From: an uncultured Pseudomonadales bacterium
GTDB taxonomy: Bacteria > Pseudomonadota > Gammaproteobacteria > Pseudomonadales > Azotimanducaceae
Length of the DNA: 47,223 nt
Direction: 5' to 3'
Assembly: GCA_905182155.1 (NCBI GenBank)
Contig: CAJJAX010000002.1
Location: 1-47,223 of the forward strand
This document shows, piece after piece, positions 18,121 through 46,131 of this stretch. Made by a program: the position numbers and the translations under genes. The stretch's first letter is position 1. Every line of letters begins with the position of its first letter. Under the pieces are notes generated by a model that did no database searches, was not told where the DNA came from, and saw nothing but the letters and a program-made list of their open reading frames with translations.

Positions 18121-18600
18121 TTACCTCTTGGCCCGCTGCGCATTCAAGTATTGAATCAGGGTTAAGACCTCGCTTGGATCCATCCGGCCCACCGGCGAAT
18201 TGCTGTAGGTCGAGAACATGACCTTGCCGGATTGCGTGACCAGTAGCTCCGTGGGCTGAATAAACCCGCGCTGTTCATCCCACCAGGCGCCTAAGGCCGC
18301 TGCATCTGCACGAGTAATGCCGTGCGCCAACGGAAAGGACAGATCCTCTGCAACCTTTGTACTGTCTGCCAGCGCATCGACCGAACCTGCAAACAACCCA
18401 ACCCCTGCTTCTAAGAACGCATCACGGCGCGCTTCATAGCCGACTAACAGCCGGCGACAAAAAGGTCACCAGTGCCCGCGATAAAAGAGTACTAGGTTGA
18501 GCGGTTGCTCAAAACATTCAGGCCACTGCTGCTCGCCGTGATCAATTGTCGTGACCGTGAGGCTCGGCAAACGATCGCCACCACTTAAAGGACCACTCAT
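18121..18600 (-). CDS. Peroxiredoxin-like (AhpC/TSA) selenoprotein with UxxC motif, TGA read as selenocysteine
   Basis: From the ATG at 18600 the frame runs 159 codons to 18121, with one TGA at 18466-18468 (codon 45). The sequence before it (LVLFYRGHW) and after it (PFCRRLLVGYEARR) is continuous in frame, and the family normally has WCPYC/WCPFC here. The TGA therefore stands for the first residue of the redox CxxC, giving UPFC. The C-terminal half (DLSFPLAHGI, FIQPTELLV, GRMDPSEVLTLIQYL) is a normal thioredoxin-fold AhpC/TSA ending. Such proteins reduce peroxides or disulfides, and Sec-containing UxxC relatives are known. A SECIS-like hairpin follows directly (separate entry). AAGGTGG precedes the start. 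A point error TGC to TGA is the main alternative; the hairpin argues against it. Confidence 0.82.
18439..18455 (-). promoter_or_regulatory. Bacterial SECIS-like hairpin after the in-frame TGA
   Basis: On the minus strand GCCGGCU (18455-18449) pairs with AGUCGGC (18445-18439), seven pairs including one G-U, around the loop GUU. The loop begins 17 bases after the TGA, with G as its first base. Bacterial SECIS elements are described as having a loop about 16-37 bases after the UGA and a G among the first two loop bases; both conditions hold. SelB would bind this element to deliver Sec-tRNA. The selA, selB, selC and selD genes are not in the window. Confidence 0.75.
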
Positions 18601-18891
18601 CATGAACGCCACCTTGTGTGAGACTGTTTCTTGAACGGTTATCTAACCCCCGCTTTTAACGCGTAGCAAGGGTTATTTGCAATTAAACGTCTAGCCGCAA
18701 GCAGCGCTTGGCCCAACAACCCAGCGCTTATCGGCTTAAACCCATAAGCTCAAGGCGTGGTTCATCTGCAGGCTGCGAGTACAGGCGAAGAACCAACAAT
18801 AGCGCTGTCACAAACTTGGCGATGCCAGACTAGGTTAGAGATGGTCAAAAATGAACGGGGTCTGGCAGTTGCCAGGAAGATAGGCGTTTGC

Positions 18892-45107: not shown

Positions 45108-46131
45108 ATGGCGCAGCACAGCATTCTCGATCTAGTTCCCATCACCTTTGGCAGCGACGCAGCCTGCGCCCTTGAGCGCAGCAAACAGCTTGCGATCAAG
45201 GCAGAATCTTGGGGTTATCATCGGTATTGGGTCGCCGAACATCACAACATGCCCGGCATTGCGAGCTCTGCCACGGCGGTGGTGATCGGTCATCTTGCCT
45301 CGGCCACTCAAACCATACGGGTGGGCTCCGGGGGCATCATGTTGCCAAACCATGCGCCGCTGATGGTGGCGGAACAATTTGGCACGCTCGCCACCTTATA
45401 TCCCAACCGGATTGATCTCGGCATTGGTCGTGCACCCGGCACCGATGGCCTGACGATGCAGGCCTTACGACGAAACCTTGCCGCAAAGCGTCGAAGATTT
45501 CCCCAGAGACGTGGTGGAACTTCAGCATTACTTAAAACCCGTTCAGCCTGGCCAACGGGTGAGCGCAACGCCTGGGGCCGGCACCGAAGTGCCAATTTGG
45601 ATATTAGGCTCAAGTTTGTATGGCGCCCAACTAGCCGCCATGCTCGGCATGCCCTTCGCCTTTGCCTCACATTTTGCGCCCACCTACCTGATGGCTGCGA
45701 TTCAAACCTATCGTGAGCAATTTAAGCCCTCAGAAACCTTGAAGGCGCCCTACGTCATGCTGGGCTTTAACCTGTGCGCTGCAGATACCAACGCGCAGGC
45801 GCACTTTTTACGCTCGTCCTCGCTGCAATCCTTTGTGAACCTTAGGCGCGGCGCGCCCGGACCCCTGCCAGAACCCATCGAGGGATTTGAAGCGAGTCTG
45901 GCACCTGCTGAGCAACAGATGGTTGAAGCCATCGGTCAATGCTCGGCGGTTGGCGATCTGGCAACGGTTCAGGCCCAGATCGGCGCCTTTCTTGCGCAAA
46001 CCGGGGCGGATGAACTGATGCTGGTGTCATCCATTTTCGATCCAGAACAGCGTTTGAAAAGCTATGAGCTTGGCGCAATCGCCATGCAGAACCTCGCGCA
46101 GGCCGATGAACCACAGCGGGCGGCGCGCTAA
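45108..46131 (+). pseudogene. Luciferase-like (LLM class) flavin-dependent monooxygenase, frame broken once
   Basis: [20 protein letters not shown] and [20 protein letters not shown] are typical of the MsnO8/YhbW-type LLM family, followed by [20 protein letters not shown] and [11 protein letters not shown]. An extra T near 45475-45478 shifts the frame; beyond it [16 protein letters not shown] and [21 protein letters not shown] continue to 46131. The restored length is about 340 residues, normal for the family. These use reduced FMN and O2; the substrate is unknown. The gene stands alone between the iron operon and a symporter gene. Confidence 0.9.

Follow-up and report, generated by a model that had tools for sequence, protein, structure and literature searches.

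The gene and its reading frame

The window analysed here is a stretch of 47,223 nucleotides, contig CAJJAX010000002.1 (assembly GCA_905182155.1) of an uncultured Pseudomonadales bacterium, and its minus strand carries at 18603-18121 a single open frame that is broken solely by a TGA at 18468-18466. As evidenced by the translation of 18720-18121 with TGA read as U (selenocysteine, Sec), the flanking residues LFYRGHW and PFCRRL are intact on either side of this codon, and the frame continues without any indel to the TAA at 18123-18121. This is the picture drawn in the first-pass annotation, which was right about the interrupted frame and the intact flanks and left the strand unstated; its 159-residue protein corresponds to a start at ATG 18600. 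The likely starts are the adjacent ATGs at 18603 and 18600, and an ATG 43-46 codons ahead of U is common to most of the 30 orthologues examined. In the list of open reading frames (ORFs) under translation table 11, the gene is represented only by a 91-codon ORF from a TTG (18396-18121), the very piece that the annotation expected gene callers to keep. The host is a gammaproteobacterium, probably marine, and the evidence assembled below makes us highly confident that the locus is an intact gene for a small selenoprotein of the UxxC type (x, any residue) with a peroxiredoxin/thioredoxin fold, whose UGA is decoded by SelB.

Compared with the two nearest relatives, at 75% identity, the ratio of nonsynonymous to synonymous change (pN/pS) is 0.21-0.26 before the TGA, with synonymous sites saturated, and 0.17-0.19 after it. 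The gene neighbourhood is not conserved: besides the gene itself, each neighbour in the window was found in at most 8 of 79 loci.

Conservation of the TGA codon

A search of 195 genomes of relatives, the window genome included, gave a near-full match (E below 1e-36) in 50, with one in-frame TGA inside the match in 48 of them and two in G018 and G023. In a 51st genome, G076, two frames share the match, and a TGA lies within the N-terminal piece; many weaker matches to other AhpC/TSA relatives were obtained as well, with and without TGA. As near-full matches in 50 of the 195 genomes carry a TGA inside the match, the codon is not a product of chance. A class-wide search of 369 genomes returned matches at E <= 1e-12 in 22, with a stop inside the match in the window genome only.

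The codon was inspected directly at 110 loci, which come from two sets with much overlap: L020-L049 represent 30 of the 50 genomes, and L070-L149 are the 80 loci retained from a contig scan of 122 relatives. Note that this contig scan used two peptide patterns of which one was written with Cys at the Sec site, so that we see no tilt towards Sec in it. A motif allowing any residue at the site matched 109 of the 110 loci, equal to 82 distinct sequences, and all 82 have TGA; the unmatched L142 was read by eye and has TGA too, bringing the count to 110/110 loci and 83/83 distinct sequences, with never a Cys codon. According to their record labels, the loci from the contig scan belong to groups such as Pseudomonadales, HTCC2089, the K189A clade, OM182, SAR86 and Pseudohongiella, with one from Myxococcota. 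That the close orthologues examined have only Sec points to a function that needs selenium. In alignment A1, comprising 28 of the 30 loci (L036, with no start codon near, and L038, which holds N, were excluded), the UxxC motif is invariant.

The alignment to more distant homologues that the first-pass annotation had proposed was also carried out, and it placed Cys codons in the same column. Of 41 further loci given, 40 could be aligned, L153 remaining without a match; 27 have TGC or TGT at the Sec site, and 13 are other Sec-type peroxiredoxin-like (Prx-like) relatives with TGA. The UGA is consequently both conserved in frame and paired with Cys in homologues, either of which counts towards a bacterial selenoprotein. 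The motif RGxHCPxC or RGxWCPxC is present in 26 of the 27 Cys relatives, and the earlier placement of the TGA at the first Cys of a WCxxC motif was right in spirit. In a tree of 53 rows, the Sec family of the window groups with 21 of the 27 Cys rows (support 100/99), and the other Sec rows, 13 in number, stand elsewhere. The tree has two changes of Sec/Cys label and suggests separate switches between the two residues; its branches are long, and the tool warns of possible false joins.

Selenocysteine machinery

The window genome is a 2.3 Mb bin that is 72.7% complete, and a search for Sec machinery, also among the checks proposed at the outset, recovered selA, selD, a tRNA-Sec and selB, the last only as an N-terminal piece. 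The tRNA-Sec, with anticodon TCA, was called by ARAGORN and scored 45.8 bits, just under the 47 of Rfam. selA scored 562 bits (cut-off 268), and the first 71 codons of selB overlap its end, with 111.8 bits to the selB model (G000:C46:1-1604, L003). selD scored 257 bits (cut-off 125) and lies inside a 738-residue ORF, the N-terminal half of which we take to resemble a flavoprotein of the NADH-dehydrogenase type. The ORF is, in this respect, like the Ndh-SelD fusions of PMC2398784. An absence of all Sec machinery, which the first-pass annotation had named as grounds for abandoning a selenoprotein, is thus not what this 73% complete genome displays.

Among the relatives, selA exceeded the cut-off in 102 of 195, of which only 42 hold an orthologue of the gene, so that the presence of selA is no sharp test. 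Seen from the other side, the 50 genomes with an orthologue comprise 42 with selA over the cut-off, two with fragments at contig ends and six with none.

Three more AhpC-TSA matches with an in-frame TGA were found in the window genome, on contigs C44, C17 and C24 (Table 1), and selenocysteine therefore seems to serve in several redox proteins of the organism. No match to Sec-containing formate dehydrogenase exceeded the cut-off in the same 73% complete genome; the three that were seen are weak, partial and free of stops. A codon-score scan of the window for further genes with a Sec TGA returned only four weak candidates; as it failed to pick up the gene described here, we give its outcome no weight.

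Two conserved hairpins downstream of the UGA

Among the 82 distinct sequences, synonymous variation is lowered at codons +1, +4, +5, +8 and +9 relative to the TGA and collapses at +13 (CGC in 73 of 77 Arg), +14 (CGT in 74 of 74 Arg) and +16 (GCG in 73 of 76 Ala). From about +21 the codons are mostly near background, and reductions occur outside the hairpins too, for example at -10, -8, +60 and +72. Most of the suppression downstream of the TGA is explained by two hairpins, which, with columns counted from the T of TGA, pair 14-19 with 25-30 (hairpin 1) and 37-42 with 49-54 (hairpin 2). The synonymous-site constraint is the stronger in hairpin 2; this hairpin was noticed from the codon constraint and then tested with named pairs, which were accordingly chosen after viewing the same sequences. 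In alignment A2, made of 80 of 83 rows after exclusion of three holding N and amounting to 73 distinct sequences once identical rows are counted once, 92.6% of the cells in both hairpins pair and six of the 12 pairs change on both sides. At 0.246, the covariation score is higher than in any of the 500 shuffles or any slid control, with the shuffles leaving shared descent in.

The gene in the window forms six of six pairs in hairpin 1, one of them G-U, and five of six in hairpin 2, where most orthologues form all six. At this register, at least five hairpin 1 pairs are present in 70 of the 73 Sec sequences and all six hairpin 2 pairs in 61 of the 73, as compared with none of the 27 Cys homologues in either case. 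In the other Sec-type relatives, both hairpins are mostly absent at the register of the window family, and hairpins are found at other registers.

The published model of the bacterial selenocysteine insertion sequence (bSECIS) calls for a loop of 3-9 nt, a stem of 4-16 bp, a G in the first two loop positions, a spacing of 16-37 nt and a minimum free energy of at most -7.5 (PMC13188914). With six pairs, the loop UGUUA and a spacing of 16, hairpin 1 agrees with the rules for stem, loop, G position and spacing; the energy of -12.2 kcal/mol belongs to a 45-nt fold containing hairpin 1 and not to hairpin 1 alone. Hairpin 2, with the loop CGUGAU, fits the model apart from its spacing of 39.

Both conserved hairpins may help to insert selenocysteine. 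A proximal loop with G and then G or U at positions 2-3 is found in 29 of the 73 distinct sequences. All 44 sequences lacking such a loop in hairpin 1 have kept hairpin 2, and all eight sequences without hairpin 2 have G and then G or U at these positions of the proximal loop. Fisher's test gives a p of 3e-4 for the association, which weakens to 0.008 when any loop with a G at its first or second position is accepted; neither value is corrected for descent. On the tree, the distal hairpin changes three times and the proximal loop 15 times; at most three independent pairs are left after correction for descent, and the association therefore falls short of significance and is suggestive only. It is a tentative proposal, and one we consider rather doubtful, that Sec insertion is directed by two alternative hairpins, of which the distal one, whose loop CGUG starts 39 nt after the UGA and thus beyond the published 16-37 nt, would be the main SelB site in most sequences while the proximal one would be kept or restored where the distal one has been lost. 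Two tandem covarying hairpins after the UGA are a new detail and an arrangement that a specialist might not expect, and the two-hairpin reading, if true, would widen the search rules for bacterial SECIS elements. Such rules are said to fail for a subset of known selenoprotein genes (PMC13188914, PMC12013277).

Protein family, fold and active site

The protein matches Pfam AhpC-TSA (PF00578) with 45 bits against a gathering score of 26 (E 1.2e-11), and Redoxin with 27.1 bits against a cut-off of 26.6 (E 4e-6). Together with the motif UPFC, this places it among the Prx-like UxxC proteins. No NCBIfam model reached its cut-off, the best being that for the SelL-related redox protein NF040769 with 19.1 bits against 120; as the ORF list moreover truncates the protein at the UGA, it is likely to be overlooked in marine bins or to appear there as a mere fragment.

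AlphaFold predicts a peroxiredoxin-like fold at a mean predicted local distance difference test score of 91.4, and the best structural matches are peroxiredoxins. In a HMMER profile alignment, Sec46 is matched to the Thr of the TxxC motif and Cys49 to the peroxidatic Cys of solved peroxiredoxins, the roles of the catalytic Thr and the peroxidatic Cys in those proteins being the ones we presume; in the same alignment, Sec46 falls on the first Cys of the CxxC motif of ResA. The protein is therefore a UxxC "Prx-like" protein and not a TxxU peroxiredoxin: the residue three before Sec46 is Gly43, and Sec itself occupies the Thr position relative to Cys49. The earlier description as peroxiredoxin-like holds in the sense of the Prx-like UxxC class and does not establish a true peroxiredoxin.

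According to the mechanism that we propose, SelB with Sec-tRNA-Sec would decode the UGA, directed by the hairpins that the mRNA forms shortly after this codon, within the coding sequence. The selenolate of Sec46, located at the N-terminal end of the helix after the central strand, would probably be the nucleophile, and Cys49 would probably resolve the selenenylsulfide, similar to the CxxC chemistry of the thioredoxin/ResA type. The frame, the conserved TGA, its pairing with Cys, the machinery genes, the fold prediction and the conserved hairpins are what the analysis shows; Sec insertion itself is inferred from them, as are the function, the substrate, the electron donor, the cytosolic location and the hairpin bound by SelB.

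Evaluation of the assignment and its alternatives

Several observations weigh against a SelB-decoded selenoprotein. The piece of selB is only 71 codons long and stays under the model cut-off, being fragmentary because contig C46 ends there. No true selA was found in six of the 50 orthologue genomes (G003, G004, G007, G054, G081 and G090), and these six are also without a selB over the cut-off, which two selA-positive genomes run alongside did have. A tRNA-Sec is present in four of the six (G003, G004, G007 and G054; L057, L053, L055 and L050), and there was none among the candidates scored in G081 and G090. The absences of selA and selB are read as missing assembly, though the high completeness of G003 (93%, in 8 contigs) and G007 (96%) fits poorly with this. 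Regarding the RNA, 4 of 500 shuffles had at least as many pairs changed on both sides as the real alignment, and single-sequence folds of the window region are unremarkable (z -0.2 to -1.6). Two of the four folds include bases upstream of the TGA, and in both the region of the TGA is taken up by a different stem and hairpin 1 moves out of register. RNAalifold of A2 gave no more than six pairs, between columns 14-20 and 24-30, recovering hairpin 1 but missing hairpin 2. The Rfam model SECIS_1 found no match in the window genome, a null result that is uninformative because none of 14 control genomes matched either. Finally, the redox activity is predicted from fold and motif only.

The TGA might alternatively be an accident, a Cys codon recently mutated or misread in a pseudogene or through an error of assembly or base calling, and a bin of 73% completeness with other broken frames, where by eye even the C44 match seems to have its N-terminal part in another frame, invites this suspicion. 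Against it, all 83 distinct orthologue sequences, drawn from many assemblies, have the identical TGA, purifying selection acts on both sides of the codon, and the RNA structure downstream is conserved; conservation across genomes has already refuted this explanation, to which we assign next to no probability. It is just as improbable that the TGA is read as tryptophan (code 4) to give RGHWWPFC. A Trp does precede the TGA, and bacterial tRNA-Trp can misread UGA as a near-cognate codon; against this, the tRNA-Trp found has the anticodon CCA, the frame seems to terminate at a TGA in 11 of 30 orthologues, homologues have Cys at the site, and the Sec machinery is present. If translation instead began only at TTG 18396, the 91-codon C-terminal part would be made as a small protein in its own right, as the mechanical ORF list has it. 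Such a product would lack the strand and helix that form the active site in the fold; in addition, UxxC is an invariant motif, the upstream codons are under purifying selection as well, and most of the 30 orthologues share the ATG 43-46 codons before U. The chance of this being the sole product is minute.

Of more weight, although we still think it unlikely, is a true peroxidase in which Cys49 attacks the peroxide and Sec46 resolves. The profile alignment of Cys49 with the peroxidatic Cys and of Sec46 with the Thr of TxxC, on the residue roles that we assume, and the peroxiredoxins among the best structural matches would both suit such an enzyme. The catalytic Thr of peroxiredoxins is, however, replaced by Sec itself, the Cys relatives are CxxC proteins, and ResA, a CxxC thiol-disulfide oxidoreductase, aligns U with its first Cys.

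Other features of the window and the genome

The window begins, at the start of the contig (1-3287), with the heptamer GTTTGGT repeated in tandem without a mismatch (469.6 copies, 100% match), and this array yields three overlapping ORFs of about 1100 codons. At 45108-46131, two overlapping ORFs in different frames resemble, by eye, the halves of one gene that we take to be a luciferase-like monooxygenase. Elsewhere in the genome, G000:C10:5596-6150 (L002) is a translation-GTPase stretch with one in-frame TGA, probably EF-Tu and probably a broken copy.

The relatives bear further Sec-containing Prx-like groups, with the motifs RGHWUPAC, RAHWUPYC and RSADWUPFC. In the other Sec groups, L157-L168 and L172-L176, the hairpin loops often hold GU (by eye GGU, CGU and AGU), and a loop of the GUUA type lies in L163 and L166-L168 at the same place as hairpin 1.

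Table 1. Features of the selenoprotein gene in the window, and related matches elsewhere in the same genome
Feature	Position	Strand	Remarks
Selenoprotein CDS, UxxC peroxiredoxin-like	18121..18603	-	160 residues from ATG 18603, 159 from ATG 18600; stop TAA 18123-18121
In-frame TGA read as selenocysteine	18466..18468	-	residue 46 from ATG 18603; TGA in 110/110 orthologue loci
Cys49 codon, second redox residue of UxxC	18457..18459	-	invariant in 28-row alignment A1
Hairpin 1, canonical bacterial SECIS candidate	18439..18455	-	6-bp stem, loop UGUUA, 16 nt past UGA
Hairpin 2, distal conserved hairpin	18415..18432	-	loop CGUGAU, 39 nt past UGA; 5/6 pairs here
Presumed Shine-Dalgarno-like motif AAGGTGG	18609..18615	-	5 nt before ATG 18603
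RSVDWUPYC AhpC-TSA match (L152)	G000:C44:28163-28471		in-frame TGA
UGC-type AhpC-TSA match (L153)	G000:C17:35226-35567		in-frame TGA
UGC-type AhpC-TSA match (L155)	G000:C24:41465-41797		in-frame TGA, plus a TAG

Comparison with known systems

The statement that UxxC Prx-like selenoproteins are known in marine bacteria agrees with the literature (PMC1088965, PMC2398784), and the protein encoded in the window is a member of a class that has been in print since at least 2005. Distant peroxiredoxin homology was described for 22 such sequences from the Sargasso Sea (PMC1088965), the Global Ocean Sampling data added 225 sequences as Prx-like 1 (PF00578, UxxC; PMC2398784), and the class also appears in two reviews (PMC9312934, PMC13188914). 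With the UxxC Prx-like thiol:disulfide oxidoreductase of Table 1 in PMC13188914 our protein shares PF00578 and Sec at the first position of UxxC, and with the published class it likewise has a downstream candidate bacterial SECIS and a probable marine source in common; the assignment to the class was made by motif, Pfam family and published descriptions. The UGC-type Prx-like selenoproteins (PMC2398784) belong to the same Pfam family and differ in having the motif UGC instead of UxxC; the window genome has two apparent members, on C17 and C24. According to PMC1794560, FdhA was the only selenoprotein in the Pseudomonadales examined there in 2006. The window genome looks different, as it has several Prx-like Sec genes, and no Sec FdhA turned up in the incomplete bin. 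In the literature searched, no paper joined selenoproteins with HTCC2089, and none on selenoproteomes of marine gammaproteobacteria concerned the lineage by its title.

The gammaproteobacterial AhpC/TSA-like RGxHCPxC proteins have the same redox motif as the protein of the window but with Cys, and they lack the hairpins at the register found there. The Sec peroxiredoxins of the TxxU type (PF00578) have the same overall fold; in these we take Sec to be the peroxidatic residue, with Thr three positions before it, whereas in the protein described here Sec replaces that Thr and the peroxidatic position is held by Cys.
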